64,000 nt of DNA, from NCBI RefSeq assembly GCF_001613105.1, contig NZ_BDBS01000005.1, positions 248,001-312,000 on the forward strand, written 5' to 3'. This DNA is from Nocardia pseudobrasiliensis NBRC 108224. Its GTDB lineage: Bacteria; Actinomycetota; Actinomycetes; Mycobacteriales; Mycobacteriaceae. Within the stretch, counting starts at the first letter, position 1. The number at the start of each line of letters is the position of its first letter. The notes under the pieces are model-generated. The model was not told the origin of the DNA. It was given only the letters and a program-made list of their open reading frames with translations, and made no database searches. Below, piece by piece: positions 11,227 to 39,704 of this stretch. The position numbers were made by a program, and so were the translations under genes.

Positions 11227-13480
<2,254 letters not shown>

Positions 13481-17589: not shown

Positions 17590-18606
17590 TCAGGCTGGCA
17601 ACCCCATGCCCTCGGCCAGCAGCGGCCACGAATCGTGCAGCGCTTCCTCCCAGTACGGCCAGTAGTGGGTGCCGACCGGGGTGAACTTGTAGGTGGCCGG
17701 GATACTCAGCGAGTCGAGCCGGTTCTTCAGATTGGCCGTGCAGCCGTTGACGGCCGCCTCGATGATCATGCCCAGCGCGAGGTTCACCCCGCCCGTCGGT
17801 CCCGGGGCGTTGGAGGTGTAGTACTTCACATCCTCCATCACCGGAATACCGCTCCCGCTCGAGACGTAGAGCAGCGTCCCGCGCAGCTTCTCGGCATTGA
17901 TCACCGGATCGTTCTGCGACCACAGCGGGCTGTCGGAGGGCCCGTACATGTTCTGGGTGTTGCCGCCCGCCCAGGTCTCGGTGGCGAGCTTGACGAACTG
18001 CTGTCCCATCGGATCGGCGATCTGCGCGCAACCGCTGTAGGCGGCCACCGACTTCCACAGCCCCGGCTTGGCCTCGGCCAGCTGCAGCACCGACGTGCCG
18101 GAGGTCGACAGACCGGCCAGGGCGTTGAGCCCGGTGGAGTTCAGCGTCGAATCCAGCAGCGGCGGCAGTTCCTCGGTGAAGAACGTCTTCCACTTGTTCA
18201 CGCCGAGAACGGGATCCGGCTTCTGCCAGTCGGTGTAGTAGCTCCCGCGCCCGCCGATCGGCTCGATGACGTTGACCTGCTTGTCGGCCAGCCACTCGAG
18301 CGCCTTGGTCTGCGCCTGCCAACTCGCGGTGCCCTCACCACCGTCGAGCCCGTTGAGCATCCACAGATTCGGCGCGGACCGGGACTCGTCCACCGGCCGC
18401 TGCACATCCACAGCGACCTCGGTATCCATCGCCGCCGAATACACCTTCAAATGCCAAGTCCGCCCGTCCTTCTTGACGGAGGTGACCGCCGACGCCTTCC
18501 CCGGCTCCGCCGAGGCGGTCTGCCCGACCAGCCCCACGGCCAGCATCGCGGCGAGCGCCACGGCACACGCCCGGGCGGTGGCGTTACGTAGTAGAGAGAA
18601 TCCCAC
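17590..18606 (-). CDS. Antigen 85-like mycolyltransferase / secreted esterase
   Basis: Protein of 338 residues with a signal peptide (cleavage ASA|EP near residue 33). It matches the corynebacterial/mycobacterial antigen-85 esterase family: VDVQRPVDES, LWMLNGLDGGEGTASW (normally LLDGL), a tryptophan-containing KWKTFFTEELPPLL and the nucleophile elbow AGLSTSGTSVLQLA (Ser169); late GTHYWPYWEEAL supplies the catalytic His. Ag85 enzymes transfer mycolates to trehalose or arabinogalactan, so this implies a mycolic-acid envelope. It is 56 bases downstream of the thioesterase gene and on the same strand, so it may be co-transcribed with the PKS operon. The start is GTG. Confidence 0.88.
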   Translation of the reverse strand: MGFSLLRNATARACAVALAAMLAVGLVGQTASAEPGKASAVTSVKKDGRTWHLKVYSAAMDTEVAVDVQRPVDESRSAPNLWMLNGLDGGEGTASWQAQTKALEWLADKQVNVIEPIGGRGSYYTDWQKPDPVLGVNKWKTFFTEELPPLLDSTLNSTGLNALAGLSTSGTSVLQLAEAKPGLWKSVAAYSGCAQIADPMGQQFVKLATETWAGGNTQNMYGPSDSPLWSQNDPVINAEKLRGTLLYVSSGSGIPVMEDVKYYTSNAPGPTGGVNLALGMIIEAAVNGCTANLKNRLDSLSIPATYKFTPVGTHYWPYWEEALHDSWPLLAEGMGLPA

Positions 18607-18662
18607 GATTCGATAAGTCTGTTGCGGGTGCGATTCCGTTACGGGTCAATCCTGTTCGTCGG

Positions 18663-19139
18663 CTACGACTTCGACAGCTGCATCACCTGCAGTGAGGAGA
18701 TGGCCGTCGCCACCAGTTTGTTCTTGCTGTTGTAGGCCTCCGCGCCGACGAACATCGCGCTCGAGCCCGGTTTGCGGACCGTGGCGGTGAGGGTGAGGCG
18801 TTCGCCGACGAAGACCGGGCGCAGGAAGTGGGTTGTCAGGTCCAGGCTCGTCGTCGGGTTCTTGGCGGTGATGTAGCTCAGGGGGGCCATCAGGTCGTCG
18901 AACATGGCGGCGAGGAAGCCGCCCAGCAGCAGGCCCATCACATTGCCGTACTTCTCGGGGATCTCGACCGAGGCCGTGATCGAGTGACCCGGGGTGAACT
19001 CCTCGAAGTGCAGGCCCAGGGTCGTCGTCGCGGGCGGGGGGAGTTTCAGTTCGACGCCGGGCGGGGTCATCTGATCGACCGCCGCCATGGCGTACTTGAA
19101 GATCTCCTCGTGTCCCTTGATCGTGGTGTCATCGGCCAT
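18663..19139 (-). CDS. Hotdog-fold acyl-CoA thioesterase (PaaI/4HBT-like)
   Basis: Protein of 158 residues with the hotdog signature: GNVMGLLLGGFLAAMFDDLMA in the central helix position, then TTSLDLTTHFLRPVFVGERL as the strand pair. The family hydrolyses acyl-CoA or acyl-ACP. The start overlaps the end of the acyl-CoA synthetase gene by 11 bases, so they are coupled. In the cluster it could edit stalled or aberrant acyl groups. Confidence 0.85.
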   Translation of the reverse strand: MADDTTIKGHEEIFKYAMAAVDQMTPPGVELKLPPPATTTLGLHFEEFTPGHSITASVEIPEKYGNVMGLLLGGFLAAMFDDLMAPLSYITAKNPTTSLDLTTHFLRPVFVGERLTLTATVRKPGSSAMFVGAEAYNSKNKLVATAISSLQVMQLSKS

Positions 19140-20892
19140 GATCGGTACCTCCCTCGCCTCGGATAATTGCCTCGTAGCGCTCCGGCGTCAGTTCCCGATA
19201 GCCGTGCTCGACGCCGTCACGGATGTAGATGGATTCCCCTGCTCGCGGCGCGAAGCCCTCACGCTGCAACGTCAACTTCGAAAGTTTCAGTGTCGCTGTC
19301 GTTTCCAGCGCCGAGCGTACCCGAATGAACAGCGGCTGTGCGTAGGTTGGCAAGGCCGCATCGAGGTGGGCGGCCAGCGCCTTGCCGTCGAACCGGACGC
19401 CGTCGCCGAGTACGACGGCCGCCATACCCGCGCGACCCTCGCTGCCGGGCACCGTCACGCCGTACACGCTGGCCGCCGCGATACCGGGCCACCGCGTGAG
19501 CTGCTCGGCCACCTCGATGGTCGAGACGTTCTCGCCCTTGTAGCGGAAGGTGTCACCCAGCCGGTCCACGAAGAACAGATTGTTCCCCTCGCCCAGGCGA
19601 AAGGCATCGCCGGTATTGAACAACGCGTCTCCGTCACGGAAGGCATTGGTGACGACCTTCGTGCGGGTGGCCTCGGCATCGCGATAACCCGTGAACGGGG
19701 TCTTCTTCCGAATCGGACCGAGCAGCACGCCGGTCTCGCCCGGTGCGCACTCCACCAGCCGCCCGTTCTCGCGGACGAAATCCTCGCGTTCGAAATCCCA
19801 TTTCGCGAGCTTGCCGCCCAGCCGCAGCTTCCCGACCGATCCGACCGTTCCGGACAGGTTGAGGGTGGCGATATTCCCCTCGGTGGACGCGTACATCTCC
19901 ACGATCCGCGGTATCGCGAACCGGTCCCGCAGTCGCTCCCAGATATCGGCCTGCAACCCCTGCCCGACGATCACCCGCAGCCGATGCCGATCGTCGTACT
20001 CACCCGGCGGGGTATTGACCAGATACCGGCACATCTCGCCGATGTAGTTGAAACCCGTTGCCTCGAAACGATGAATGTCGCGCCAGAATCCGCCCGCGGA
20101 GAACCGCCGCCCGAGCGCCAGCGTGGATCCGTGGGTGAGCACACTGGCCAGCGGGATCACCAGCGCGTGGGTGTGGAACAGGGGAAGGCAGTTGTAGACG
20201 ACGTCCCCGGGTTCGAAACGCCAGGCCAGCGCCCCGAGCACCCGACCGACGCTGGTCAACCGCTGGTAGCTCATAACGGCGGCCTTGGGCAGGCCGGTCG
20301 TGCCGCTGGTGAAAACGTAAGCGCCCGTATCCCCGAGGGTGTGCCGTGCCGTCTCGGGCGGGTCGGTAACCGTCGCGCTCGGCGCGAACCGCGCCAGACC
20401 CGATGTCTCGCAGTCTATTTCGCTCTCTTCCACATCCACCAGACTGTGTTCGACCAACTCCTTCGGCAGCCGGTCGCGAATGGCCAGGAACGCGGGCAGA
20501 CATTCCGAACCCACGACCACATGTCCGGCCCCGCACACCTCGAGCGCGTGGGCGAGACCGTCCCCGCGAGCCTGCGTATTGGCCAGTGCCACAACGACAC
20601 CGAGCTTGCCCGCCGCCAGATAGTGCCAGAGGAATTCCGGCCGGTTCTCCATGACCAGGGCCAGGGCATCGCCCTTGCCCATCCCCGCGGCCCGATAGGC
20701 GTGTGCGATGCCGTTGACGATCCGATTGGCCTGCGCGTAGTCGAATCGCCGATCCTCGAACAGCAGCAGCGGCTCGGCCGCCTGGGTTCTGCTCCGCCGC
20801 TCGAGCTCGAGGGCCAGCGTCCGATTGGAGCCGGAACCCTCGAGCAGACCGCGGGTCAGGGTCGCGTACGACCGGATGCGGTGGATCGGCAC
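19129..20892 (-). CDS. Long/very-long-chain acyl-CoA synthetase (FadD6-like)
   Basis: Protein of 587 residues in the ANL adenylating superfamily. The AMP-binding motif is YVFTSGTTGLPKAAV; EMYASTEGN (A5), FNTGDAFRLG and the FVDRLGDTFRYKGENVST hinge (A7–A8) are present. The FATP/very-long-chain subgroup, including mycobacterial FadD6, shows this pattern. It would activate a fatty acid to an acyl-adenylate and then to acyl-CoA, possibly as the PKS starter. The start is GTG, 1 base after the upstream SDR stop. The divergence of function between FadD and FadD-like AMP-ligases (FAAL) is not obvious; no FAAL insertion is seen. Confidence 0.88.
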   Translation of the reverse strand: MPIHRIRSYATLTRGLLEGSGSNRTLALELERRSRTQAAEPLLLFEDRRFDYAQANRIVNGIAHAYRAAGMGKGDALALVMENRPEFLWHYLAAGKLGVVVALANTQARGDGLAHALEVCGAGHVVVGSECLPAFLAIRDRLPKELVEHSLVDVEESEIDCETSGLARFAPSATVTDPPETARHTLGDTGAYVFTSGTTGLPKAAVMSYQRLTSVGRVLGALAWRFEPGDVVYNCLPLFHTHALVIPLASVLTHGSTLALGRRFSAGGFWRDIHRFEATGFNYIGEMCRYLVNTPPGEYDDRHRLRVIVGQGLQADIWERLRDRFAIPRIVEMYASTEGNIATLNLSGTVGSVGKLRLGGKLAKWDFEREDFVRENGRLVECAPGETGVLLGPIRKKTPFTGYRDAEATRTKVVTNAFRDGDALFNTGDAFRLGEGNNLFFVDRLGDTFRYKGENVSTIEVAEQLTRWPGIAAASVYGVTVPGSEGRAGMAAVVLGDGVRFDGKALAAHLDAALPTYAQPLFIRVRSALETTATLKLSKLTLQREGFAPRAGESIYIRDGVEHGYRELTPERYEAIIRGEGGTDHGR

Positions 20893-20893
20893 G

Positions 20894-21790
20894 CTAGGCC
20901 TTAGAGCTGTCCGCCGCCGCCATGGCGGCGAAGTACATCTGCTGTGCGACCTCGGCGACGAGATCCCAACGCTCCCAGGTCATCGGCGTCGGCTCCTTGT
21001 CGGGGACGAACCGATACCGCGACAGATCCTCGACCCCTTTGAGGCTCGAAAGGATCTCGTCGTCGATCAGGGCGTTGCCGGTGTACTTCGCCGGATCCTG
21101 TTCCAGCACGGCCATGATGGCGTCGACGACGATGTCCTCGGTGCGCCAGTCCTCGGGACTGCCGATGCCGAGATTCTGCGTCGCCAGCGTCCCGATCAGC
21201 GTGCGGGTCCAGACCGTGTTGCACGCGATCCCGTCCGCGGCAACCTCTTTGCCCAATCCGAGGGTCAGCAGCGTCGCGTTCAACTTGGAGGACATGTACG
21301 CCACCTTGCCGCCCATATGCTGAATCCCCTCGGGATCCAGCGGCGGACTCAGGTTGACGATATGACCCCAGCCGCCCCGGCGCATATGCGGAATGCAGTG
21401 GTGCGCAAGCAGGAACGGGGCCCGGGCATTGATGGCCATCACCAGGTCGTAGCGCTTGTGCGGCGTACCCTCGACCGACTGTAACCACATCGCACCGGCA
21501 TTGTTGACCAGAATGTCGATGCGGCCGAAGCGCTCCACGGTCCGATCGACCAGGTTCTGCAGATCCGCTTCCTTGCGCACATCGCAGTACAGCCCGAGCG
21601 CCTGCGCGCCGCGCTCCTCGATCTCGCGGACGGTATCGGGCACGCTGCCCGGCAGCCGGCCCCCGGCCTCCATCGTCTTCGCGCCGATGACGATGTTCGC
21701 GCCCTGTTCGGCCAGGGCGAGGGCCAGCGCCTTGCCGATGCCGCGGCTACCGCCGGTGATGATCGCCACGCGACCTTCGAACTGGGTCAC
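20894..21790 (-). CDS. SDR oxidoreductase, HSDL2-like
   Basis: Protein of 298 residues. Glycine-rich motif IITGGSRGIGKALA, NNAGAMW, and a Ser/Tyr/Lys triad partly altered: the usual catalytic Ser region reads VNLSPPLDPEG, then YMSSKLNA. The SPPL segment and C-terminal extension are typical of the hydroxysteroid dehydrogenase-like 2 group. A GAGGAG RBS 6–11 bases upstream favours the GTG at 21790 over the ATG at 21808. It sits between the halogenase-type gene and the acyl-CoA synthetase in the PKS operon, so a role in beta-keto/hydroxy processing of the product is plausible. Confidence 0.88.
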   Translation of the reverse strand: MTQFEGRVAIITGGSRGIGKALALALAEQGANIVIGAKTMEAGGRLPGSVPDTVREIEERGAQALGLYCDVRKEADLQNLVDRTVERFGRIDILVNNAGAMWLQSVEGTPHKRYDLVMAINARAPFLLAHHCIPHMRRGGWGHIVNLSPPLDPEGIQHMGGKVAYMSSKLNATLLTLGLGKEVAADGIACNTVWTRTLIGTLATQNLGIGSPEDWRTEDIVVDAIMAVLEQDPAKYTGNALIDDEILSSLKGVEDLSRYRFVPDKEPTPMTWERWDLVAEVAQQMYFAAMAAADSSKA

Positions 21791-21818
21791 ATTCAGCTCC
21801 TCTCGCATTCCACAGCGG

Positions 21819-23390
21819 TCACTCGCCGACGGCCGCGACCGGTTCCCGCTCGGGAAGGTCGTAGCGCTTGGCGACTTCCTGCTCGAACGATTCCGCCCAC
21901 GACTCCAACCGGTCGACATTGCGCCGCATATCGCGGAAGGTCTGGTCGGGGGTCTTGTCGGTGAGCAGGTCCAAGTGCAGCTGAGCGCAGATCGGCACCT
22001 TGCTGTACTCCACGAACAGATACTTGTCCGGCTGCGCGGCCTGTGCGCCGAAAGCGCGCAGATTGGCCTGCATCCGCGACTGGATACCCTTGAATCGCGT
22101 TGCGATGGGATGGAATTCGGCCGCCGCCTCCTCATTGCCGATCAGATCCCGGAACAGCAGCTGCGAGGGCAGCGCCCAGTAGAACGACGTATCCCACATC
22201 ACCTTGGTGAACATGGCCGGGGCGCTGCCGAAGATGCCGTAGTTCTGGTGGTACATCCCCAGATAGTTCGGCCACATATCGTCGAGCATCAGGCGGTTGT
22301 AGGTCTGGGAGACCTCGGGGGTCAGCTTGCCCTTGCGGTCGAGCTCGATCAGCCGCGCGGTGATGGTGTTGGTGTAGGCGATGTAGTCCGAACCCGGGCT
22401 GTAGAAGGCGTCGAGGAAGACGCCCGCCTCACCGACACAGGCCCACCGATCGTGCGAGAAGATCTGCTCCGACGCGTAACTGGCGTTGCGCACCTGGAGG
22501 AAGTCGAGCACCTCGCCGCCCTCGATGAACTTCGCCAGCGACGGCTCGTACTCCGAAATCCACTGGCGGGCTTTCTTTTCCGTGCCGTAGGTGCGGAACG
22601 GGTGGATGTTCTCGTCGGTCACGATGCCGATGCTGGTGTTACCCGACGACAGCGGGATCATCCATACCCAATAGCCGGAGCCCATCAGGTGATTGGTCGA
22701 GAACCACCGGCGTTCCTGGGTGGGCGGTCGCCACGTCGGATTGGTGGTGTCGGTCATCTTCTCCACGTCGTACTCACCGCGGAACCGCCACCACGCCGCA
22801 TTGATCTTGTGCGGGCTCGGCGCGCTCAGGCCGAGCTTGCGCTGAATCAGCCGCTGGCGGCCCGACGCGTCGACCACGAACCGCGCCCGCACGGTCTGCT
22901 CGGCGCTGTCCCCGGTGACCTCGTAGTGCACGATATGGTCGTCGCCGGTGCTCGACAACTCGATGTCGAGCACCTTCGCCTGCTCCACCAGATCGATGCC
23001 GAGTTCGCCGGCCCGCTCGCGCAGATCGCGTTCGAAGCGGCCGCGGTCGATCTGATAGGAGGTCACCCGCGGGAACCGCCGGGCCCCCAGTTCGGGCCGC
23101 GCCTCGAGCGGCCCGTGGGAATCGCCGAAGAACATCCGCAGTCCGAGCTTGTGCAGATGCCGCCGGTTGAAATAGCCGGTGAGGCCGAGTTTTTCGCTGA
23201 AGTAGTGCGCACCGCCCTCGACGGTGGCCTCACCCACCTTGTAGGCGCCGTCGGGGATGTCGCCCCCGCTGCGCTCGAGGACCAGCACCGTGAGATCGGG
23301 CATGGCGATCTTCAGCTGTCTCGACAGCGTCAGCCCCGCCAGGCCGCCACCGCAGATCACGACGTCGTATCTTTGCGCCGCTTTCATCAT
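21819..23390 (-). CDS. Flavin-dependent halogenase-family enzyme of the PKS cluster
   Basis: Protein of 523 residues. FAD-binding GGGLAGLTLSRQL starts near residue 14, VGEATVEGG matches the FAD-contact segment of halogenases, and Lys81 (HLHKLGLRMFF) aligns by position with the catalytic lysine of flavin-dependent halogenases. The family signature WxWxIP is present at 241–246, and a late FYSPGSDYIA resembles the FxxPxxSxG element of halogenases that act on phenolic or acyl substrates. An FADH2-dependent chlorinase/brominase acting on the PKS product is the best reading; a flavin hydroxylase cannot be excluded. Two adjacent ATGs (23390, 23387) follow a GGAGA RBS. It is 39 bases after the PKS stop. 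Confidence 0.75.
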   Translation of the reverse strand: MMKAAQRYDVVICGGGLAGLTLSRQLKIAMPDLTVLVLERSGGDIPDGAYKVGEATVEGGAHYFSEKLGLTGYFNRRHLHKLGLRMFFGDSHGPLEARPELGARRFPRVTSYQIDRGRFERDLRERAGELGIDLVEQAKVLDIELSSTGDDHIVHYEVTGDSAEQTVRARFVVDASGRQRLIQRKLGLSAPSPHKINAAWWRFRGEYDVEKMTDTTNPTWRPPTQERRWFSTNHLMGSGYWVWMIPLSSGNTSIGIVTDENIHPFRTYGTEKKARQWISEYEPSLAKFIEGGEVLDFLQVRNASYASEQIFSHDRWACVGEAGVFLDAFYSPGSDYIAYTNTITARLIELDRKGKLTPEVSQTYNRLMLDDMWPNYLGMYHQNYGIFGSAPAMFTKVMWDTSFYWALPSQLLFRDLIGNEEAAAEFHPIATRFKGIQSRMQANLRAFGAQAAQPDKYLFVEYSKVPICAQLHLDLLTDKTPDQTFRDMRRNVDRLESWAESFEQEVAKRYDLPEREPVAAVGE

Positions 23391-23429
23391 AGTTCTCCGT
23401 TCAGGCTGTTCAACTGCGCTGGAGTGGCC

Positions 23430-26400
23430 TCAGTGCCCGTCCACCAGACTCGTGAAACTCGGGTAGGCGTCCTCGGCGGACAGCTCCTGAGCGATCGTCC
23501 GCATCACCTGCGCGTCCGCGTTCTGGATGAACAGGTGGCCACCGGGAACGGTGGTGAGCGAGAATCCGCCGCTGGTCAACTTGCCCCAGCCCTGCAGCTG
23601 ATCCGTTTCGAACACCGGATCGTCCGCGCCGCGCAGCACCGAGATCGGGGCGCGCAGCGTGTAGCCGTTCTCGTAGCGGTACTCGCCCAACATCTTCAGA
23701 TCCGCCCGGATCGCCGGCAGCCAGTGCATGATCGCGCCCTCGTCCTCGACGGGGATGTCGAGCAGCTTGTTGTCGCGCAGCACCGCCAGCACCCGGCTGT
23801 CGGACTCGACTGCCAGGTCGAACCCGTCGCGGATGTGATTCAGATTCCGCACGTAATTCTCGACCAGCGCCGGTGCGGGCCAGCCGCCGATGATCAGTTT
23901 CATCGGCACCTCGTTGTAATGCTGTTCGAGGTATTTGGTGAGCTCGTAGGCGAGTAGTCCACCCATGCTGTGCCCGTAGACCACGAAGGTGCGATCCAGA
24001 TGCGGCAGCATGGCCTCGGCCAGTTCCGCGACGAATTCCGGCATCGAGTCGATCGGCAGATCGTCGAGCCGATCCTCGCGGCCCGGGAACTGGAGGCCCA
24101 CCACCTCGACGGTGTCGGGCAGGTAGTTCGGCCACGGATTGAACACCGAGGCCCCGCCGCCGACGAAGGGCAGTGCGAACAACCGGATCGAGGCGGTGTT
24201 CGAGCGGCCGATCACCGTGCGGATCCAGCGTTCGGGTCCGGTGGCCTGTGTCGGGGATGTCGTTGCGGCGCCGGTGGTTTCACCGGAGACCTGAGCCAGC
24301 ACCTCACCGGCGAGTTCGATGATCGACGGGCCGCGCATCAGACCCATGGTCGGGAAGTCGATCTCGAGATGTTTGGCCAGCATATTGCGGATCTGGCCCG
24401 CCATCAGCGAATCCATTCCCAGATCGGTCAGGCCGACGTCCTGGGCGAGGCGTTCGACCGGCATATCGAAGATCCGCGAGATCTGTTGCGTCAGTGCGGT
24501 TACCAGCCGCGGCTGCCGCTCGTCCTCGGGAAGTTCGAACAGCTCGGCGCGCAGCCCCTCGGTGCCGAACCCCGCGGACGTACCCGCGGTGTCCTGCGCG
24601 GCGAGATGTGCGAGCCGGGGCGAACTGCGCACGATCGGCATGACCTGATTCATCTTCGCCCAGTTCACGCCGAATACGCTGGCGCGGCTGACGCCCTGGA
24701 CCAGGCAGCGGCCGATGAAATCGAGCGCGTGATCGGGTGAGATCGGCGTCCAACCCAGCCACGACAGGGTGTCGAGCTTGTTGCGGGCGACGAAGCCGAC
24801 CTCCGCGATGGCGCCCCAGTTGACCGTCAGCGCGGGCAGGCCGAGCTGATGGCGATGTACCGCCAGCGCCTCCAGGAACCCGTTGGCCGCAGCGTAATTC
24901 GACTGACCCGGCGTGCCGACGTTCCAGCTCATCGAGGAGAACATCACGAAGGCGTCCAGCTCGAGTTCGCGGGTGTGGTTGTGCAGATGCCAGGCGCCGT
25001 CGACCTTCGGCCGCACCGCCCGCAGGAACTCCTCCTCGGTCATCGTGGCCAGCGGACCGTCCGCGATGACCATGGCCGCGTGGTAGATCCCGCGCAGCGG
25101 AGGCAGGGTCGCGATCCGTTCGAGCAGTCCGACCACCTCGGCCTCCACCGAGACGTCGGCGCGTTCGAGCACCACCTCGACGCCCTTGGCGCGCAATGCC
25201 TCGATCGGCTGCTCGTTCTCGGCGTCGACCTGTGCCCGGCGGCCGACCAGCACAATGGTCCGGGCGCCCTTACCGGCCAGCCACTGCGCGGTGCGCAGGC
25301 CGAATCCCGTGTAGCCGCCGGTGATCAGGTAGGTGCCCTCGGGATCGAACACCTCGTCACCGGTCGCGGTCGGATAGACCAGCACCTGCGCGTCGGAATC
25401 GAATTCGACGACGACCTTGCCGATCTGCTTGGCATTGGCCATGTATCGGAAGGCCGACTCGACCTCCGCGGCCTCGAAATCGGTATGCGGCAGCGGGGGC
25501 AGGGTGCCCGCACCCACATGCTCGAGGACCTTGTCCATGGCCTCGCGGCACCGGGCCGGAACCTCCAGCAGCATGCGGTCGATATCGACGGCCGAGTAGC
25601 TCAGGTTGTTGCCGAACGGCTTGAGCCCCAGCTTGTAGTTGTCGTAGATGTCCTTCTTGCCGATCTCGACGAACCGGCCGTGCGGACGCAGCAACTCCAG
25701 ACTCTTCGGAATGGTCTCGCCCTGCAGGGAATTCAGCACGATGTCGACACCGTCGAAGCGCTGGCGGATCTCGTCGGCGAAGCTCAGTGAGCGGGAGTCG
25801 AAGACCTCCTCCACGCCCAGCGAGCGCAGGTAGTCCCGCTTCTCCGGGCTGCCCGCGGTCGCGAGAACCGTTGCGCCCAAACGATGTGCGATATGCACCG
25901 CGGCGAGTCCGACGCCACCGGCGGCCGCGTGCACCAGCACCCGCTCGCCCGGCCGCACCCGGCCCACGTCCACCAATGCGTACCACGCGGTCAGATAGGC
26001 CATCGGCAGCGTCGCGGCCTCGACGGCCGACAGATTGCCCGGCGCCGGGTAGACGTGCTGGGCATCGGTGACCACCGAGGACCCGAAACACCCACGGGCG
26101 AAGGCGATCACGGCGTCACCGGGAGCGAGCCCCTCGACCTCGGAACCGACCGCGGTGACGACACCGGCGCATTCCACGCCGAGGTTGCGCTCGTAGAACC
26201 CGCCGAGGGTCGCACCCTCCGACAGCACGCCGAGGGTCAGCATGATGTCGCGGAAGTTCAGACCGGTCGCGGTCGGCCGCAGCGCGACGTCGTTCGGGCC
26301 GAGGGCGGGCCGGATCTGCTTCTCGTAACGCAGCTCATCGATGCCGGGTTCGGCGGGAACGCTGAGCGCGAACGGGATCTCGTCCGACATCCGGGCGGGC

Positions 26401-29400
26401 GTCGCGACCGAGGATTCGAACTCCGCGAGCGAGATGTGCTCGAAGCGATCGACGAAGCGGGTGTCGCCGCGGTAGGCGACCTCCTCCTCGTCGGTCCGCA
26501 CATGCAGCAGTTCGTCGAACAGCTGGGCCGCGCGCAGGGCCGCCCCGGCCGCCGGATCGAAGTCGATGATCTTGGCCCGCAGGCTGCTGTGCTCGCTGAG
26601 CAGCACCCGCAGGATGCCCCAGCTCGGCACCTGCGACGGGGTGACCAGATCGGCCCGCTCCACCTGCGGCCCGCCGGAGGTCGCCACCCAGAATCGCGGC
26701 GCCACCGGCCATTCCAGATTCTCGACCGCCTGCGCCAGCGCGATCACGCTGTAGGCGCCGTGGCTTTCCACGCGCGAGAGCAGTTCGGTGGTGAGTTCGG
26801 CGGCGGCGAAGTCCAGATTCCACAGGTGCAGAACACCGGCCACGGAACCCGCGCTCTCGCGCACCTGCTCGAGCACCCGCCGCAGATCGGCGTTGCTGGT
26901 CGGATCCACCTGGAAGGCGCGCTCACCGGTCTGCTCGAAAGCCGTTCCGCGTGTGACGGTCACGCTGCCCGCGGCGGCCTCGCCGAGCAGATCGAGATAG
27001 CTCTCGGCCACCCCGTCGGCATCGGCCAGCACCACCCACGCACCCGACTCGATCCGCGGCTGATGCGGTGCGAGGTCGACTTCGCCTGTGCGCGCGGCGA
27101 TCACCGAACAGCCGGTCTGCTCCGCGCTGGTCATATCCGAGAAGATCCGGACCTGTTCGAAGCCCGCCGACGGCAGGAACTCGCGCCAGGTGTCCTCCGA
27201 CATCAGCGGATAGTGCGGCCGCAGATCGTGATCGGCGAAGCGCCACCAGCCGTCGGTCATGCCGAAGGTCAGATCGACCCAGTGCGGCGGATTGGTCTCC
27301 TCCACGATCAGCATCAGTCCGCGCGAGGTGAGCAGCTGTTCGACATTGCCGAGGGTGACGCGCAGATTCTCGGTGGCGTGCAGGACATTCGCCGCGACCA
27401 CGATGTCGAAGTAGTGCGGATCGAAGCCCTGCTCGGCGATGTCGTGTTCGACATCGAGGATCCGGTAGTCGACGAAGTCGTATTCGGCGAACCGCTGTCG
27501 CGCCTTGTTCAGGAACAGCTGGCCGATATCGGTGAAGACGTACTCCGCCCGATCGGCCGGGAGTTCGGCGAGGATCCAGCCGGTCGTACCCGCGGTGCCC
27601 GCACCGATTTCCAGGACCCGGATGGGCCGATCGGTCGGCAGCGCCCGCACGGCCTCGGCGACCACCTTGGCGACCGTGCGGTTGCAGCGCTCGAAGGAGA
27701 ACGAGGTCTCGTAGAGATCGACGACCGACTGGAACTCGCTCTCGGGGAAGATGAGTTCGATCGGGTTGACGTCGTCACGCAGTACCGCGGCCTGTTCGGT
27801 GCCGCAGCGTTCCAGAATCGCGTACTCGGACTCGCATTCGGGATGTTGTTCGCGCAGTCGGGCCAACGCCGCGGCGGTGTCGACCCGGGCGGGAACGGTC
27901 AGCAACTGCCAATCGTCGCCGCCCCTACCGGTGATCCCGTGCCGCGACAGCAGTTCCAGCAGGCGAGCCAGATAGTCGCGATGCTTGTCGTGCACGCCCA
28001 GTTCGCGGGAGATCTCGTCGAGGGTGAAGGTGCGGCCCTGTGTGAAATCCATGCCCAGCCGGTAGAAGGCCTCGGTCACATACGCGATGCACAGGCGGTT
28101 CATCTCCGCCTCGGTCACCGCGTAGTACTCGCGATTGAGCGACCAGTCGCGCACTTCCTCGATGATCGGATCGACGGCGGCCTGCAGGGCCTCGGCATCC
28201 GGTACGAAGTCGGCGGGCAGCAGCGTCCTGGTGCGCACCGGCGCCGCGCGCCACTGGTACTCGTAGAGCCACTGCATCAGCGCGTCGCGATCCTCGGTGG
28301 GCTGGGTGATCGACTTGCCCTTGAAGCCCTCGAATTCGGCCACCAGCGTGCCGTCCTCGTTGAGCAGCCACAGATTGCCTTCACAATAGGCCGGATCGTC
28401 GAGGATGTTCGCCTCGCCGTAGCAGTACACGCGCTTACCCGCTTTCGCGTGGAAGCTGAACCGCTTGACGTCGTAGGGAATGTAGAGCGTCTTGTCGTCG
28501 GTGTTCGGATCGTTGCCCATCGCGATGGACAGCGACTGGAAGCACGCGTCGAGCAGCGCCGGATGGATCAGATGCCGGGAGGCCTCGTCCGCGATGGCAT
28601 CGGGGGTGTCGATGCGGCCGAGCGAGCGCAGTTCGCCGTACTTCAGCTTGGTGATCGCCCGGAAGATCGGACCGAGCATCAGGCCGTTGTTGCGGAACTT
28701 CGCGAAGACCTTCGCCGGATCGAATTCCAGGGGGCAGTGCGCGTCCAGCTCCGAGAACGGTACGGGCACTTCGGTTTCGGGCGCGCCGCGGCGCAGCGTG
28801 CCCTCCGAGTGCAGCACCCAGTCCTTGTCACCGTCCTGCAGGCTGTAGATCCCGAAGTGCATCGACTGGGACAGCACCACCTGCACCAGCGGGGCGGGCC
28901 GATCGTCGAACACGAACAGCGGGCGACGGAACTCGACATTCTCGACCGAGTAGCGATCCGCGCCGAAAGCGTCTGTGGCGCAACCGACCACGAGGTCCAG
29001 ATGACCCGCGCCGGGGAACACGATCGGACCCTGGACGCGATGGTCCTCGAGCCACGGGAACACGGCCGTATCCATGACCAGTTCCCAGACGTACTTGTCC
29101 GGCTCGTCGGCGACGGGTTTGCGGGTCCCCACGAGGGGATGGCCCAGCGACGGGAAGCGCGCCTCGCGCGAGGTCGGCGTCTCCAGCCAATAGGTTTCGC
29201 GCTGCCACGGGTAGAAGGGCAGCTGCACGCGCTCGGAGTCGCCGTCGAATACGGTCTCCCACGCCGGGTCGAATCCGGCCGTGTACAGCGAGCCGAGCGA
29301 GGCCAGCAGGGTGGCGCGATCGCTCTGCTTGCGATGCAGCGACGGTACCGCGACACCCTGGGCCTGCCGCTTGGTGAGCAGTTCGCCGATGGCGGTCGAA

Positions 29401-31868
29401 TGGATCGGATGCGGACCCAGTTCCACGAAGGTCAGATGCCGATCCTCGATGAGGCGGTCGATGGTGGGCGCGAACCGGACGGGTTCGCGGATATTGCGCC
29501 ACCAGTACTGCGCGTCGAGTCCGCCGGTCGGCACGACATTGCCGGTGACCGTCGAATACATCGGAACCGTGGCCGGACCCGAGGTGATACCCGAGAGCGA
29601 TTCGAGCAGTTCGTCGTGCAGCGGATCCATGTGATGGCTGTGGAAGGCCACCGCGACCTGCAGCATGCGGCAGAAGATCCGATCCCGATCCAGTTCGGCC
29701 CGGATCTCCTCGAGCGCATCGGGATCGCCTGCGAGCGCGGTGGATTCGGGCCCGTTGAGCGCGGCGACCTCGACCCGGCCGCGGTAGTCGGTGATGCGCT
29801 GCTCGGCCTCGTGATACGGCAGGCCGACCGCGAGCATCTTGCCCTTGCCGGAGGCCTGCTGCTGAACGCGGCTGCGGTGGAAGATGACTCGAACCGCGTC
29901 CTCGAACGACAGCGCGCCGGAAACATACGCCGCGGCGACCTCGCCGATGCTGTGTCCGATGACGGCCGCGGGGGTGATGCCCCAGCTCTGCCACAGCGCC
30001 GCGAGTCCGACCTGCACCGCGAACACCGCGGGCTGGGCGATGAAGGTCTCGCCGATGCGGCTGTCGGCCTCGTCGCGACCGAGTTCCTCGAGCACGCTCC
30101 AGTCGGCGTGCTTGCGCAGTTCGGCGTCCACGCGCTCGACGGTCTGCCGGAAAATCGGGTTCTCGGAAAGCAATTCGCGGGCCATACCCCACCACTGCGG
30201 ACCCTGACCGGAGAAGACGAAGGCCACATTCGACAGGCCGGGGGTCTTCACCCCGGTGCGCAATGCCTCGGGCTCCGAACCGCGGGCCAGATCGCGCAGG
30301 GCGTCGCGCAGCTGCTCGGTGGAGGAGGCCACCATGGCCAGGCGCTGGTCGTAATGCGAGCGCGTGCGGGCCTGCGCGGCGGCGACCGCGGGCAGTGCGG
30401 TCTTCGGATCGCCCAGGAAATCGGCGTAGGTGTCGGCGTAGGCCAGCAGCGCGTCCTTGGTCTTCGCGCTGAGGGTGAACAGTACGGGCTCGTCGGCCTC
30501 GACCTCGTCGGTCGAATCCGCTTGCGGTGCGGCGGCGGGCGGACCCTCCAGGATGACGTGGGCGTTGGAGCCGCCGAAACCGAAGGAGTTCACACCCGCC
30601 AAGCGCGGGCCGTCGCCGGGCCAGGGCTGCCGCGACTGCGCGAGCGCCAGGCCGAGGTCCTCGAACGGGATCGTCGGATTCGGTTCCTCCGCATGCAGAT
30701 TCGCGGGGATCTCACCATTGCCGACGACCAGGCAGGCCTTGATGATGCCGACCATGCCGGCCGCGGACTCGAGGTGGCCGACATTCGACTTCACCGCGCC
30801 GACGATGCAGGGGCCCTGGCCGTTTCGTCCCGCGCCGAGCACCTTACCCAGTGCGCGCGCCTCGATCGGGTCGCCGACCGAGGTGCCCGTGCCGTGCGCC
30901 TCGATATAGCCGATATCGGTGGGCGTGACGCCCGCGTCGCGGCAGGCGTCCCTGATCATCTCGGCCTGCGCGTCCTCGCTCGGCACCGAGATGCCGTTGG
31001 TGCGGCCGTCCTGATTGGTCGCGCTGCCGCGGATGACCGCGTAGATGTGATCGCCGTCGGCGACGGCCGCCGACAGCGGTTTCAGCACGATCGTGCCCGA
31101 ACCCTCGCTGCGGATGTAGCCGTCACCGGATTTGCTGAACGACTGGCAGCGGCCCTCGGGGGACAGGAAGGTGCCCTGGCTGAAGCCGATGGTCGCCTCC
31201 GGCAGCAGCAGGGTGCTGACGCCGCCGACCAGCGCCATGGTCGCCTCGCCCGAGCGAATGCTGCGGATCGCCAGGTGAATCGCGACCAGCGAGGACGAAC
31301 AGGCCGTATCCACGGTCATACTCGGGCCGCGCAGATCCAGCAGATACGAAACGCGGTTGGCCACAATGCAGTTGGTGACGCCGGTCATCGTATGACCGCC
31401 GATCTGATAGCGGTTCTCCGGATTGAGCTGGATGATGCCGTAGTCGTGGCCGGAGACGCCGGCGTAGACGGCCACCTTCTCGCCCGCGATGCTCTCGGGG
31501 ACGATGCCCGCATCCTGGAGGGCCTCCCAGGTGGTCTCCAGGAACAGCCGCTGCTGGGGATCGATGCGCGCGGCCTCGGTCGGGGTGATCCCGAAGAAGT
31601 GCGCGTCGAACGACGACACGTCGTCGAGATAGCCGCCGGTGCGGGTGCGCATATGTCCGGGGCGGCCCGCGTCGCGGTCGTAGAAAGCGGTTGCGCTCCA
31701 GCGGTCCTCGGGAACCTCGCGAACCGCGTCACGCTCCTCGATCAGAAGTCGCCAGAAGTCGTCGACATTGCGAACCTGTCCTGGGAACCGACATCCGATC
31801 CCCACGACTGCAATGCCATCGGATACGGCCGGCGCGGTCTCATTCGGGGAGCTGTGAACAGAATTCAT
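23430..31868 (-). CDS. Single-chain highly reducing type I polyketide synthase, KS-AT-DH-cMT-ER-KR-ACP-TE
   Basis: Protein of 2812 residues. KS 18–442 (DTACSSS Cys190, His325, His365). AT about 549–845 (GHSIGEV Ser640; VAFH at 740–743, nearer the malonyl HAFH than the methylmalonyl YASH pattern). DH about 905–1190 (His943 in DHRVQGPIVFPG, Asp1107). C-methyltransferase about 1390–1590 (VLEIGAGTAGTTG). ER about 1845–2155 (HAAAGGVGLA). KR about 2178–2360 (TGGYTGFG, Tyr2325, Asn2329). ACP about 2455–2525 (LGMDSL Ser2487). TE about 2560–2800 (GHSMGG Ser2634, Asp2749 or Asp2750, His2778). All catalytic residues are intact. One full module with cMT and ER suggests iterative synthesis of a saturated, methyl-branched chain released by the TE, a layout best known from fungi. 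CGAGG RBS 7 bases before the ATG. Confidence 0.95.
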   Translation of the reverse strand: MNSVHSSPNETAPAVSDGIAVVGIGCRFPGQVRNVDDFWRLLIEERDAVREVPEDRWSATAFYDRDAGRPGHMRTRTGGYLDDVSSFDAHFFGITPTEAARIDPQQRLFLETTWEALQDAGIVPESIAGEKVAVYAGVSGHDYGIIQLNPENRYQIGGHTMTGVTNCIVANRVSYLLDLRGPSMTVDTACSSSLVAIHLAIRSIRSGEATMALVGGVSTLLLPEATIGFSQGTFLSPEGRCQSFSKSGDGYIRSEGSGTIVLKPLSAAVADGDHIYAVIRGSATNQDGRTNGISVPSEDAQAEMIRDACRDAGVTPTDIGYIEAHGTGTSVGDPIEARALGKVLGAGRNGQGPCIVGAVKSNVGHLESAAGMVGIIKACLVVGNGEIPANLHAEEPNPTIPFEDLGLALAQSRQPWPGDGPRLAGVNSFGFGGSNAHVILEGPPAAAPQADSTDEVEADEPVLFTLSAKTKDALLAYADTYADFLGDPKTALPAVAAAQARTRSHYDQRLAMVASSTEQLRDALRDLARGSEPEALRTGVKTPGLSNVAFVFSGQGPQWWGMARELLSENPIFRQTVERVDAELRKHADWSVLEELGRDEADSRIGETFIAQPAVFAVQVGLAALWQSWGITPAAVIGHSIGEVAAAYVSGALSFEDAVRVIFHRSRVQQQASGKGKMLAVGLPYHEAEQRITDYRGRVEVAALNGPESTALAGDPDALEEIRAELDRDRIFCRMLQVAVAFHSHHMDPLHDELLESLSGITSGPATVPMYSTVTGNVVPTGGLDAQYWWRNIREPVRFAPTIDRLIEDRHLTFVELGPHPIHSTAIGELLTKRQAQGVAVPSLHRKQSDRATLLASLGSLYTAGFDPAWETVFDGDSERVQLPFYPWQRETYWLETPTSREARFPSLGHPLVGTRKPVADEPDKYVWELVMDTAVFPWLEDHRVQGPIVFPGAGHLDLVVGCATDAFGADRYSVENVEFRRPLFVFDDRPAPLVQVVLSQSMHFGIYSLQDGDKDWVLHSEGTLRRGAPETEVPVPFSELDAHCPLEFDPAKVFAKFRNNGLMLGPIFRAITKLKYGELRSLGRIDTPDAIADEASRHLIHPALLDACFQSLSIAMGNDPNTDDKTLYIPYDVKRFSFHAKAGKRVYCYGEANILDDPAYCEGNLWLLNEDGTLVAEFEGFKGKSITQPTEDRDALMQWLYEYQWRAAPVRTRTLLPADFVPDAEALQAAVDPIIEEVRDWSLNREYYAVTEAEMNRLCIAYVTEAFYRLGMDFTQGRTFTLDEISRELGVHDKHRDYLARLLELLSRHGITGRGGDDWQLLTVPARVDTAAALARLREQHPECESEYAILERCGTEQAAVLRDDVNPIELIFPESEFQSVVDLYETSFSFERCNRTVAKVVAEAVRALPTDRPIRVLEIGAGTAGTTGWILAELPADRAEYVFTDIGQLFLNKARQRFAEYDFVDYRILDVEHDIAEQGFDPHYFDIVVAANVLHATENLRVTLGNVEQLLTSRGLMLIVEETNPPHWVDLTFGMTDGWWRFADHDLRPHYPLMSEDTWREFLPSAGFEQVRIFSDMTSAEQTGCSVIAARTGEVDLAPHQPRIESGAWVVLADADGVAESYLDLLGEAAAGSVTVTRGTAFEQTGERAFQVDPTSNADLRRVLEQVRESAGSVAGVLHLWNLDFAAAELTTELLSRVESHGAYSVIALAQAVENLEWPVAPRFWVATSGGPQVERADLVTPSQVPSWGILRVLLSEHSSLRAKIIDFDPAAGAALRAAQLFDELLHVRTDEEEVAYRGDTRFVDRFEHISLAEFESSVATPARMSDEIPFALSVPAEPGIDELRYEKQIRPALGPNDVALRPTATGLNFRDIMLTLGVLSEGATLGGFYERNLGVECAGVVTAVGSEVEGLAPGDAVIAFARGCFGSSVVTDAQHVYPAPGNLSAVEAATLPMAYLTAWYALVDVGRVRPGERVLVHAAAGGVGLAAVHIAHRLGATVLATAGSPEKRDYLRSLGVEEVFDSRSLSFADEIRQRFDGVDIVLNSLQGETIPKSLELLRPHGRFVEIGKKDIYDNYKLGLKPFGNNLSYSAVDIDRMLLEVPARCREAMDKVLEHVGAGTLPPLPHTDFEAAEVESAFRYMANAKQIGKVVVEFDSDAQVLVYPTATGDEVFDPEGTYLITGGYTGFGLRTAQWLAGKGARTIVLVGRRAQVDAENEQPIEALRAKGVEVVLERADVSVEAEVVGLLERIATLPPLRGIYHAAMVIADGPLATMTEEEFLRAVRPKVDGAWHLHNHTRELELDAFVMFSSMSWNVGTPGQSNYAAANGFLEALAVHRHQLGLPALTVNWGAIAEVGFVARNKLDTLSWLGWTPISPDHALDFIGRCLVQGVSRASVFGVNWAKMNQVMPIVRSSPRLAHLAAQDTAGTSAGFGTEGLRAELFELPEDERQPRLVTALTQQISRIFDMPVERLAQDVGLTDLGMDSLMAGQIRNMLAKHLEIDFPTMGLMRGPSIIELAGEVLAQVSGETTGAATTSPTQATGPERWIRTVIGRSNTASIRLFALPFVGGGASVFNPWPNYLPDTVEVVGLQFPGREDRLDDLPIDSMPEFVAELAEAMLPHLDRTFVVYGHSMGGLLAYELTKYLEQHYNEVPMKLIIGGWPAPALVENYVRNLNHIRDGFDLAVESDSRVLAVLRDNKLLDIPVEDEGAIMHWLPAIRADLKMLGEYRYENGYTLRAPISVLRGADDPVFETDQLQGWGKLTSGGFSLTTVPGGHLFIQNADAQVMRTIAQELSAEDAYPSFTSLVDGH

Positions 31869-32009
31869 CGCATAACCTCGTTTTGTAACAACACATCGAT
31901 CGACGCGAACAAAATTTCATTTGTTGGCGACGGCAATGTGTCTCCCGGGACGCACATCGGGGACTTCGGCTTCCCCCTGGACAGCCTTCCGCCCCGCAAG
32001 CCGATAGAT

Positions 32010-32079
32010 GATCACGACTTGCTTCCGATGAAAATCATAAGTGAACAGTGATGGACGCACATCCCCCCGATCGGGTGGG
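32010..32079 (-). promoter_or_regulatory. Shared promoter element A upstream of the PKS
   Basis: Lies in the 320-base spacer between the P450 and PKS genes, 140–210 bases upstream of the PKS start. Read leftward it has a CCCGATCGGG palindrome (32066–32075), 26 bases, then TATGAT (32039–32034) as a -10 box, then a conserved GCAAGTCGTGATC. The same arrangement with identical 26-base spacing occurs upstream of the P450 (33605–33673). The palindrome sits where an activator or repressor would bind next to RNA polymerase. The rest of the spacer, including a leader of about 160 bases, shows no gene. Confidence 0.6.
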
Positions 32080-32188
32080 CTTTTCCAGTTTTCTCGTGTA
32101 AACCGCAGCAAAAGTTTCGACCGGGTTTCCTGCGAAAGAATTGTTCGCGATTTATACCGGGTAGTTCGATGGCTTTCCGCGACTCGAT

Positions 32189-33493
32189 TCAACCGATGGC
32201 GGAGTGGGTCGGGCGGGCGCTCGGCCCGAGTTCGGCCGGAACGTGCGCGTAACCGCGGAAGGTGAGTTGTGGACGCAGTTGTGGCGGCGCCGCGGCCCGC
32301 ATCTTCGGAAAGCGTTCGAACAGCGCGCGCAGGGCGTAGCCGGCTTCCATCCGCGCCAGGTTGGCGCCGAAGCAGGCGTGCACGCCGCTGCTGAACGACA
32401 GGTGCTCATTGGCATTCGAGCGGGCGACGTCGAATCGGTGCGGATCGGCAAATACCCCGGGGTCTCGATTCGCGCCGGCCACCGACAGCATGATCATGGT
32501 GCCCTGCGGCAGTGGGATGCCCTCGAGTTCCACATCGGTCAGGGGCACCCGGGCGGTGAGGAATACCGGCGGCTCGCAGCGCAGCGCCTCCTCCACGGCA
32601 TTGGGCCACAGCTCCGGTTCCGCGCGCAGCCGGTCGATCTGGTCCGGATTGCTGAGCAGCAGGTGGATCGCGTGGCTGATCAGATTGGCGGTGGTTTCGA
32701 AGCCCGCGCCGATGATGATGCTGGTGTTGGCCTTGAGGGCGTAGTCGTCCAGCTCGCCGCTGGCGATCATATTGCTGAGGACGTCCTCGCCCGGTTCCCG
32801 CCGCAGCCGCTCGATATGGCGGTCGAGGTAGTCGTTGAGCTCCTGTGCCGCCCGCATGCCCCGGTTGTAGGCCCGCCACGGGATGCCGATGTCGAGCATG
32901 GGCGTCATCTGCTCGCCCCAGATCAGGAATTTCTCCTGGTCTTCCCTTGGCATGCCGAGCATTTCGAAGATGATCGCGATGGGCACGCGGGTGGCGAACG
33001 CCTCGACCAAATCGACCGTGCCGTCGGCGGGCATGGCGTCGAGCAGTTCCTCGGTGACGGTCTCGACCCGATCGCGCAGCTTCTTGACCGCGCGCGGGGT
33101 GAATGCCGAGACCACCGGTTTGCGCATCTTGGTGTGCTCCGGCGGATTCAGCCGCAGCATCGCGGGCGGATCGGCCGGATTGGCCGGCGGCGGCACCCGG
33201 TTCGCGAACTTCTGCAGTACCTTGGGGATTTCGATCCGGGCCGAGCTGCGCACGCCGAAGCGATTGTCCCGCAGCATCATTCGCACCAGCGCGTAGTCGG
33301 CGGTCGCCCAGGGCAGCGGCGTCTTCACCAACTTGCCCTGGGCGCGGATCTGTTCGATGAACCGGTGCGGATCCTCGATACCCTCCGGTCCGACCATCTT
33401 GGCGAAGTTGTCACCCCGCATCGTCTGGACTCGCAGTACCGCTCGCGGTACACCCTGTAATGTCAACCAGCGCAACCAAAACTGCAAATTCAT
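32189..33493 (-). CDS. Cytochrome P450 of the PKS cluster
   Basis: Protein of about 434 residues. The haem-binding loop is FSSGVHACFGANLARME with the axial Cys; the I-helix oxygen-activation motif is GAGFETTAN (usual A/G-G-x-D/E-T-T); the K-helix ExxR is EALR. Class I bacterial P450s of this type need a separate ferredoxin and reductase, and none is encoded nearby. The ATG at 33493 is preferred; a TTG at 33508 is possible, and a GGAGA RBS sits too close to one and rather far from the other. It is separated from the PKS by 320 bases but preceded by the same promoter element, so it is probably co-regulated and hydroxylates the polyketide. Confidence 0.9.
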   Translation of the reverse strand: MNLQFWLRWLTLQGVPRAVLRVQTMRGDNFAKMVGPEGIEDPHRFIEQIRAQGKLVKTPLPWATADYALVRMMLRDNRFGVRSSARIEIPKVLQKFANRVPPPANPADPPAMLRLNPPEHTKMRKPVVSAFTPRAVKKLRDRVETVTEELLDAMPADGTVDLVEAFATRVPIAIIFEMLGMPREDQEKFLIWGEQMTPMLDIGIPWRAYNRGMRAAQELNDYLDRHIERLRREPGEDVLSNMIASGELDDYALKANTSIIIGAGFETTANLISHAIHLLLSNPDQIDRLRAEPELWPNAVEEALRCEPPVFLTARVPLTDVELEGIPLPQGTMIMLSVAGANRDPGVFADPHRFDVARSNANEHLSFSSGVHACFGANLARMEAGYALRALFERFPKMRAAAPPQLRPQLTFRGYAHVPAELGPSARPTHSAIG

Positions 33494-33604
33494 CGGATGA
33501 GCAACCAATCTCCGCGACGGCGTGAAATTCGTCCATTAACTGCCGAAAAACTGCAGCGGAGAACCCAGGCCCCCTGCGGCTCCTCGCCTCGCGGATCGAT
33601 CGAA

Positions 33605-35804: not shown

Positions 35805-35854
35805 GTGGAGCTAAGGGGAATCGAACCCCTGACCTTCTCGATGCGAACGAGACG
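35805..35854 (-). repeat. Left attachment repeat: 3' part of tRNA-Ala
   Basis: 50 bases identical to 39655–39704. It equals the anticodon arm, variable loop, T arm and 3' acceptor strand of the tRNA-Ala gene at the other end. The 5' half of a tRNA is absent here. This is the hallmark of a site-specific integration that rebuilt the tRNA at the far end and left a truncated copy here. Confidence 0.9.
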
Positions 35855-36276: not shown

Positions 36277-36524
36277 GAGGCGGTTACCGATCGAGTTGCG
36301 CGATGCAGACGACCCGCCGCCTCCAAGGTGCTCAGCGCCGCGTGTTTCTGCTTGCACTGAACCGAGTCGTTGTGCAGGTGGATCTGCAACAACCGGTGCG
36401 CCTGTTCTGGCGTGAGTGGACCCGGATCGAAAGCGCAGTGGTCGTAATACGGATAGTCGTTCGGATCGTCCGAGCCATTCTCGAAATGGATCGACACCCG
36501 CACGGTGTCGTAGTCAATGTTCAT
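36273..36524 (-). CDS. Small acidic protein in the element operon
   Basis: Protein of 83 residues. The N-terminal half is acidic and beta-like (VRVSIHFENGSDDPNDYPYY), the C-terminal half helical and basic (QAHRLLQIHLHNDS). No family recognised. It overlaps the preceding oxygenase gene and the following 84-residue gene by 4 bases each, so the three products are made together. Confidence 0.6.
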   Translation of the reverse strand: MNIDYDTVRVSIHFENGSDDPNDYPYYDHCAFDPGPLTPEQAHRLLQIHLHNDSVQCKQKHAALSTLEAAGRLHRATRSVTAS

Positions 36525-37261
36525 GGCTTCACCCCGACTGCGTTCGATGCCTCGAAACCCGATGGGATGGCAAACTCCTCGTGTGGATTCAGGCTGAGCC
36601 GGTACATGACTCGGTCGCCGCTGAATCGAGTACGACCGTGCAGCCAGCGGTGGTTGTGCAACACGTATCCCTGCCCAGGTTCCAAGCCGAACTGGATCAT
36701 GTGGCGTTCCACAGCGTCACTCAACGCGGGCAGCCATCGGACGATCCCCGGGGCGAACATCGCCAGTTCGTCTCGCCGGTACCGAATCCGAACTCGCCCG
36801 TCCGTCGTGCGCTCGAATATCGAACTCAGGTAGCCCGCCGCCCCACCGAACAAGACCGTGTTGGGCTGTGAAAGTGCCTGTGCTGCTTGCGTGTTGCTTG
36901 CGGCAAGGTCGAGGAACATGCTCCGACCATCGATTGCGATGGTGTCACCGCCTCGGCCCTTCCGACCGCAAACCACCATCAACAGCGCAGGCGGTTCCGG
37001 TATGCCCGATCGGTCCGTGTGCGGAGCGAGTGCGCCGTTACCGAACCCCTCGAAACCGGCACGGCTGCCGAGCTTTCCGCGATGCATCAACGTTGTCACG
37101 CCATCCGGTCCGCTATCCCGGTGCGGGACAACACGACCCAAAGACGCCCCCAGGGCGACCAATTGTGCTCGAGTCCGAATGCCTTCGAATCGAGCCAAGC
37201 CATCCGCAGCCAGCTTTGCGGCTACCCCTGCTGCCCACTCATGCTGTAAGTCCACGAACAT
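36521..37261 (-). CDS. TauD/TfdA-like Fe(II)/2-oxoglutarate oxygenase candidate
   Basis: Protein of 246 residues. The iron facial triad can be placed: HTD in ALAPHTDRSG and a distal His in LHNHRWLHGRTRF, with the Arg that would hold 2-oxoglutarate 9–12 residues later (GDRVMYR). These match the TauD/TfdA and clavaminate-synthase-like pattern, including the HNxxxLHGR signature. Substrate unknown. It is the first gene of the three-gene element operon, divergent from the NUDIX gene; the roughly 98-base spacer must hold both promoters. Confidence 0.75.
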   Translation of the reverse strand: MFVDLQHEWAAGVAAKLAADGLARFEGIRTRAQLVALGASLGRVVPHRDSGPDGVTTLMHRGKLGSRAGFEGFGNGALAPHTDRSGIPEPPALLMVVCGRKGRGGDTIAIDGRSMFLDLAASNTQAAQALSQPNTVLFGGAAGYLSSIFERTTDGRVRIRYRRDELAMFAPGIVRWLPALSDAVERHMIQFGLEPGQGYVLHNHRWLHGRTRFSGDRVMYRLSLNPHEEFAIPSGFEASNAVGVKP

Positions 37262-39654: not shown

Positions 39655-39704
39655 GTGGAGCTAAGGGGAATCGAACCCCTGACCTTCTCGATGCGAACGA
39701 GACG
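39655..39704 (-). repeat. Right attachment repeat within tRNA-Ala
   Basis: 50 bases identical to 35805–35854. It lies inside the intact tRNA gene (anticodon stem to 3' end). Integration therefore preserved tRNA function by supplying this part from the element. Confidence 0.9.

Follow-up and report, generated by a model that had tools for sequence, protein, structure and literature searches.

Which biosynthetic family does the multidomain polyketide synthase (PKS) in a window of Nocardia pseudobrasiliensis NBRC 108224 belong to, and which of the genes around it form a unit with it? The window is the whole 64,000-nucleotide stretch analysed (contig NZ_BDBS01000005.1, positions 248,001 to 312,000). 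The genes in question lie on its minus strand in the transcription order cytochrome P450, PKS, halogenase-type flavoenzyme, short-chain dehydrogenase (SDR), acyl-CoA ligase, hotdog thioesterase (TE) and mycolyltransferase-like esterase, and all those named in the initial annotation were found there. We judge it likely that the locus is a compact secondary-metabolite operon orthologous to the Streptomyces cluster around the PKS AlnB, with a single reducing PKS that would work iteratively.

The link to AlnB comes through the dehydratase (DH) domain of the PKS, which has a near-identical solved chain in the Protein Data Bank (PDB), 7tzl; a structural model of the domain (mean predicted local distance difference test score, pLDDT, of 67) served only to reach the title of that entry, 'The DH dehydratase domain of AlnB'. 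The sequence of 7tzl shares 99.0% identity with a Streptomyces griseofuscus locus and 97.3% with loci of S. hygroscopicus and S. murinus; the window DH is 86.0% identical to it. Because of these identities the window PKS is, as judged from sequence, an ortholog of AlnB; over its full length it is 83% identical to the S. griseofuscus copy. In S. griseofuscus a P450 gene directly precedes the PKS gene, and if the letters A and B follow gene order the P450 is perhaps the equivalent of AlnA. The locus had at first been described as impossible to match to a known product. We found no aln product for an AlnB-type PKS in the literature searched, which left subscription literature largely outside its scope; yet a named ortholog already exists. 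In PMC11705231 aln denotes alanosine, another cluster, and PMC8443760, on S. griseofuscus, names a few known clusters and leaves 29 unknown; PMC13389473, on cyclopropane polyketides, does not bear on the cluster. The cluster is a member of a little-studied family whose synthase others have already named and partly crystallised, which places this Nocardia locus in a family with a named synthase and a one-domain crystal structure.

To define the unit, we scanned named genome contigs for the flavoenzyme, obtained 19 loci (16 from Nocardia, 3 from Streptomyces) and compared the window proteins with them by tblastn. The PKS adjoins the flavoenzyme in all 19 loci at 70-86% identity, although it is incomplete in four of them (cut by a contig end in L032, in two pieces in L039 and L040, and matched from residue 488 on in L042). 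In L039 and L040, both draft genomes, the PKS gene reads in two frames, from either a sequencing error or a broken gene. The hotdog TE, too, is a neighbour of the flavoenzyme in every one of the 19 (50-73% identity). The SDR is found in 11 of 19 (75-92%), with four further loci holding only a relative of 23-25% identity, and the ligase in 10 of 19 at 74-83% identity and nearly full length, L041 retaining just a 50-residue stretch. The P450 is present in 7 of 19 loci at 76-81% identity; the flanks examined reach at most 10 kb from the flavoenzyme and only about 1.5 kb upstream of the PKS, and a P450 farther away would escape. None was found within 19 kb upstream in L049, one complete genome of the N. 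brasiliensis type. Chance is excluded as the source of this arrangement, since other species and a second genus have a PKS of 70-86% protein identity among the same neighbours. The PKS, flavoenzyme and hotdog TE are the core and the other genes are optional; the expectation of a self-contained one-module PKS with a full reducing set and tailoring enzymes is borne out by this conservation as a unit.

The distribution of the cluster is patchy. Of 150 Nocardia genomes, 17 (the own genome among them) encode a flavoenzyme of at least 72% identity, four of them in two copies. Of 392 genomes sampled in the genus of S. griseofuscus, that centre included, two have the flavoenzyme at 85% and 12 more a relative at 38-45%; among 396 drawn from the phylum, it was found only in the own genome, with 36-37% relatives in three genomes of a sister genus. 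A flavoenzyme tree of 20 family members and four distant relatives joins the window sequence to those of Nocardia sp. SYP-A9097 and N. panacis (support 95/93) and unites the three Streptomyces sequences (98/100). N. colli, N. ninae, N. suismassiliense and N. tenerifensis have their second copies in one group (100/100), and the deeper branching within the family is poorly resolved. Four Nocardia species hold two paralogous cluster copies in separate clades (L029/L042, L033/L038, L034/L037 and L032/L039). At 83% identity the Streptomyces copies are nearer to the window PKS than the N. brasiliensis type is (75-77%), which suggests that the cluster may have moved between Nocardia and Streptomyces. 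Plasmid records searched by tblastn with the flavoenzyme gave 65 matches, all below 60% identity and four covering most of the protein, of which the best (38-39%) came from Janthinobacterium and Gloeothece.

The PKS itself (23430-31868, minus strand, as are all features below) is a type I protein of 2812 amino acids. Its assignment rests on Pfam and on the identity of its DH with 7tzl, and Pfam finds all eight predicted domains, in order, in this one polypeptide. The ketosynthase (KS, 30690-31817) carries TACSSS, EAHGTGT and KSNVGH; the acyltransferase (AT, 29268-30221) carries GHSIGE and AFHS, which we take to be malonyl-type motifs; and the DH (28296-29141) carries DHRVQGPIVFP and LLDACFQS. 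After the C-methyltransferase (cMT) core at 27150-27668 follow the enoylreductase (ER, 25404-26300; HAAAGGVGLA), the ketoreductase (KR, 24804-25337; TGGYTGFG, NYAAAN), the acyl carrier protein (ACP, 24306-24497; LGMDSL) and a fused, RifR-like TE (23490-24185; GHSMGG, GGHLFI). The catalytic residues had all been called intact, which holds for the motifs sought in KS, AT, DH, ER, KR, ACP and TE but not for the cMT, whose S-adenosylmethionine (SAM) loop reads GAGTAGTT, with Gly changed to Ala, beside a retained His and Glu.

We judged the kinship of the PKS by scores against solved structures only, and not by a KS tree. The whole protein matches mycocerosic acid synthase (MAS) first in the PDB (1088 bits; lovastatin nonaketide synthase, LovB, 726). 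Its KS scores 447 bits against PikA1, 444 against Pks13, 423 against CurL, 410 against MAS and 327 against LovB, and 720 bits against the two-KS chain 7zma, a score that comes from two stretches. The cMT gives 279 bits with CurJ, 137 with DisA, 129 each with AprA and the citrinin synthase, and 106 with LovB. Both domains thus score higher against bacterial enzymes than against LovB, and 'fungal-style', as the synthase had been called, describes a resemblance of layout and not kinship. The fused TE has its closest relatives in RifR and other type II thioesterases that stand alone; hydrolytic release is therefore likely and an editing role possible, which weakens the earlier view that the integral TE, present as described, does the releasing.

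Around the PKS the genes are closely packed. The flavoenzyme gene lies 39 bases from it, the SDR gene a further 10 bases on, and the ligase gene 1 base beyond; the hotdog TE and ligase genes overlap by 11 bases, and 56 bases separate the esterase and TE genes. The gaps of 1-56 bases first reported therefore hold, except at the overlapping pair. The SDR (20894-21808, with 21808 as its refined start) belongs to the PRK08278 subfamily, the ligase (19129-20892) is a long-chain acyl-CoA ligase of PRK08279/FadD6-like type, and the hotdog TE (18663-19139) is 4HBT and PaaI-like; family matches and conservation support all three. The P450 gene (32189-33493) does precede the PKS gene, as noted at the outset, but 320 bases separate them; its start was refined to 33493, an ATG at query residue 6, where the alignment of five relatives begins. 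It matches Pfam p450 and has AGFET, EALR and the heme motif FSSGVHACFG. Its top NCBIfam match, TIGR04515 (211 bits, cut-off 343), would make it an inactive glycosyltransferase activator, a role that we set aside in view of the intact heme cysteine motif.

From the observed gene content, domains, motifs, conservation and orthology we infer iteration, substrates, step order, release route and each chemical step as follows. The AT would load malonyl units and the KS extend the chain, the one module most simply, and most likely, being used iteratively, with KR, DH, ER and possibly cMT acting on some rounds. Release as an acid would fall to the fused RifR-like TE, the separate hotdog TE or both, and the flavoenzyme would halogenate or oxygenate the chain before or after this. 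The SDR could then adjust a carbonyl or alcohol and the P450 hydroxylate the chain, and the ligase, missing in the three Streptomyces copies, would probably re-activate the free acid or supply a starter.

Several points weigh against this reading. The flavoenzyme is present in 19 of 19 loci by construction, being the bait. In the literature searched we found no description of an aln cluster beyond the title of 7tzl. The altered cMT loop is not peculiar to the window: it reads GAGTAGTT in all eight members of the P450-bearing subgroup (the window, L024-L028, L035 and L041) and GAGTGGTT in the other 12 loci, His and Glu being kept throughout, and methylation in the subgroup may be lost or weak. 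Methyl-branching of the product is uncertain because of this change; a branched chain had been predicted, which fits the presence of a cMT with its His and Glu, but the Gly-to-Ala loop does not assure branching. Regulator and transporter genes beside orthologs of the cluster (TetR, MFS, SARP, LuxR and sodium/proton exchanger) favour the operon reading. No exporter or exchanger directly adjoins the window operon, however: an MFS gene (11227-12801) is 5 kb beyond it, no called window gene groups with the exchangers of the relatives, and of four exchanger relatives in the own genome the best, 42% identical, is on another contig.

The flavoenzyme (21819-23390, 523 amino acids; Pfam Trp_halogenase and FAD_binding_3) may be a true halogenase. 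As a special case of the AlnB-type operon, the product might then be a polyketide bearing chlorine, perhaps a beta-keto acid chlorinated at the alpha position or, after decarboxylation, a chloroketone, in the manner of neocarzilin; we hold this tentatively, as a possibility somewhat short of even. The best solved relatives of the flavoenzyme are PltA and CmlS. Its Lys81 is the same in all 14 family members aligned and corresponds to a lysine, presumably catalytic, in both PltA and CmlS. GxGxxG and WxWxIP, given as halogenase motifs in PMC4859513, are equally invariant in the 14 members, but WxWxIP also occurs in 3nix, named only flavoprotein/dehydrogenase. Ten regions around distant relatives (35-45% identity, L069-L078) also bear on the question. 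An exchanger is present in four of them and a small PKS lies next door in four (L070, L074, L075 and L076; KS-AT-DH-KR-ACP checked for L074 and L075), three of these with a separate thioesterase-like gene before the PKS. Against halogenation stands a third motif, FxxPxxSxG, which we take to mark the halide region. That position reads FLDAFYSPG, with Ala for Pro, in all 14 family members, so the motif is not matched, whereas 14 of 15 distant relatives keep the Pro and L072 has Ala, a count that leaves out two other-type flavoenzymes (L035 18121 and L050 10363) with FIDPLFSRG and without the aligned lysine. Ser replaces the Phe of the motif in four of the 15 (the second of L070, L073, the second of L075 and the third of L076). 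A predicted fold of the flavoenzyme was discarded as too poor (mean pLDDT 48, Foldseek TM-scores of at most 0.25).

The same Ala leads to a further reading, which we consider unlikely: the flavoenzyme could be a halogenase derivative with an altered halide site that carries out some other oxidation on a reduced polyketide chain and, with the cMT of the P450 subgroup weakened as well, the product would be neither halogenated nor richly methylated.

Far less probable is a methyl-branched envelope lipid of mycocerosic or phthioceranic kind, attached to the cell wall by the FadD-like ligase and the mycolyltransferase-like (Ag85-like) esterase (17590-18606). Both genes adjoin the PKS, MAS is the top whole-protein PDB match and the Pks2 model, second best in NCBIfam, scores 1275 bits, which fails its cut-off of 2400 by far. 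The esterase, however, which the initial annotation had taken into the cluster, is found in 0 of 19 loci at E 1e-10 within the examined flanks. All 148 Nocardia genomes have homologs at E 1e-70 or better; orthologs of 77-84% identity sit, for example, in two genomes without a close flavoenzyme match (G012 and G072), and in G104 the ortholog lies on contig 45 and the PKS cluster on contig 64. Because it is absent from the loci and unlinked elsewhere, we judge it a neighbour outside the cluster. Neither this ligase nor the esterase accompanies the cluster in the three Streptomyces loci, and to our knowledge Streptomyces lack mycolic acids. MAS, moreover, uses methylmalonyl units and is not known to have a cMT or TE, whereas the window PKS has both, with an AT motif presumed malonyl-type. 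A misleading link to the cell wall is thereby removed, and core genes are told apart from optional ones. The least probable reading makes the PKS a single part of a longer assembly line with its other modules elsewhere. It would fit the KS, whose closest matches are modular synthases such as PikA1, CurL and 7zma, but the module has its KS, AT, DH, ER, KR and ACP together with its own TE, no PKS partner appears among the called genes of the window (where only an ER-like dehydrogenase at 16574 joins its similarity group) or of the S. griseofuscus flanks L045/L046, and the own genome has no second match to the window cMT at E 0.001.

Other gene groups were seen beside members of the family. In L030 (17784-20549) an S58 peptidase, a 334-residue protein without a Pfam match and a PanC-like ligase stand beside the PKS cluster; the PanC-like and 334-residue proteins recur in 8 of 19 loci, as does the peptidase (8 of 19), and the group could possibly serve pantothenate chemistry or provide a target enzyme in duplicate. 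A block of nine genes adjoins the PKS cluster in both N. panacis and N. otitidiscaviarum, though on different sides (L052 5698-15921, L053 7548-18147), comprising in L052 methylaspartate mutase E and S-like proteins, a short class II tRNA synthetase-like protein, two ATP-grasp proteins, an MFS protein, a luciferase-like monooxygenase, an FMN-dehydrogenase/glutamate synthase-like protein and one unknown, possibly a second, peptide-type pathway. Around distant flavoenzymes, arrays of two or three such enzymes are followed by a thioesterase-like gene and a single-module synthase (L070 8031-19001, L075 8716-18802, L076 8959-19899), two of these arrays coming from Nocardia (L075, L076) and one from the genus of S. 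griseofuscus (L070). The domains were checked in L075 alone, and in L076 the first and second flavoenzymes are separated by an exchanger and a small opposite-strand gene. Elsewhere in the window, the 3' part of a tRNA-Ala(CGC) gene forms an exact 50-base direct repeat (39655-39704 and 35805-35854, 3.85 kb apart), between whose copies lie genes for a TauD-like dioxygenase (36521-37261) and a helix-turn-helix protein (37799-39061); by its layout the repeat resembles the termini of a small integrated element, or of what is left of one.

Set beside known systems, the synthase has features in common with several. With LovB it shares what we take to be the domain order KS-AT-DH-cMT-(ER)-KR-ACP, but the kinship of its KS and cMT is weaker than to bacterial enzymes. 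MAS is nearest over the whole protein, differing by the cMT and TE. CurJ, of the curacin synthase, provides the nearest solved cMT and the nearest solved DH after AlnB; it is one module of an assembly line, whereas the window module stands alone with a TE. The flavoenzyme resembles CmlS and PltA, both flavin halogenases, in sequence family, GxGxxG, WxWxIP and the aligned lysine and differs in the Ala for Pro of FxxPxxSxG; its well-conserved C-terminal part (residues ~390-505) extends beyond the stretches matched in the PDB. Among the orthologous loci, the N. brasiliensis type (L029-L034, L040) is alike in PKS (75-77%), flavoenzyme (79-80%), hotdog TE (50-53%) and ligase (74-77%), but has a canonical cMT loop, no P450 of the window type within the examined flanks and added genes for an alpha/beta hydrolase, an exchanger, LuxR, a PanC-like ligase and an S58 peptidase (annotated on L030 and L050). 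The AlnB-type Streptomyces loci (L026-L028) lack the ligase and carry sodium/proton exchanger, TetR, MFS, alpha/beta hydrolase and SARP genes (annotated on L026); they share with the window the order P450-PKS-flavoenzyme-SDR-hotdog TE, to which the window adds a ligase between SDR and TE.

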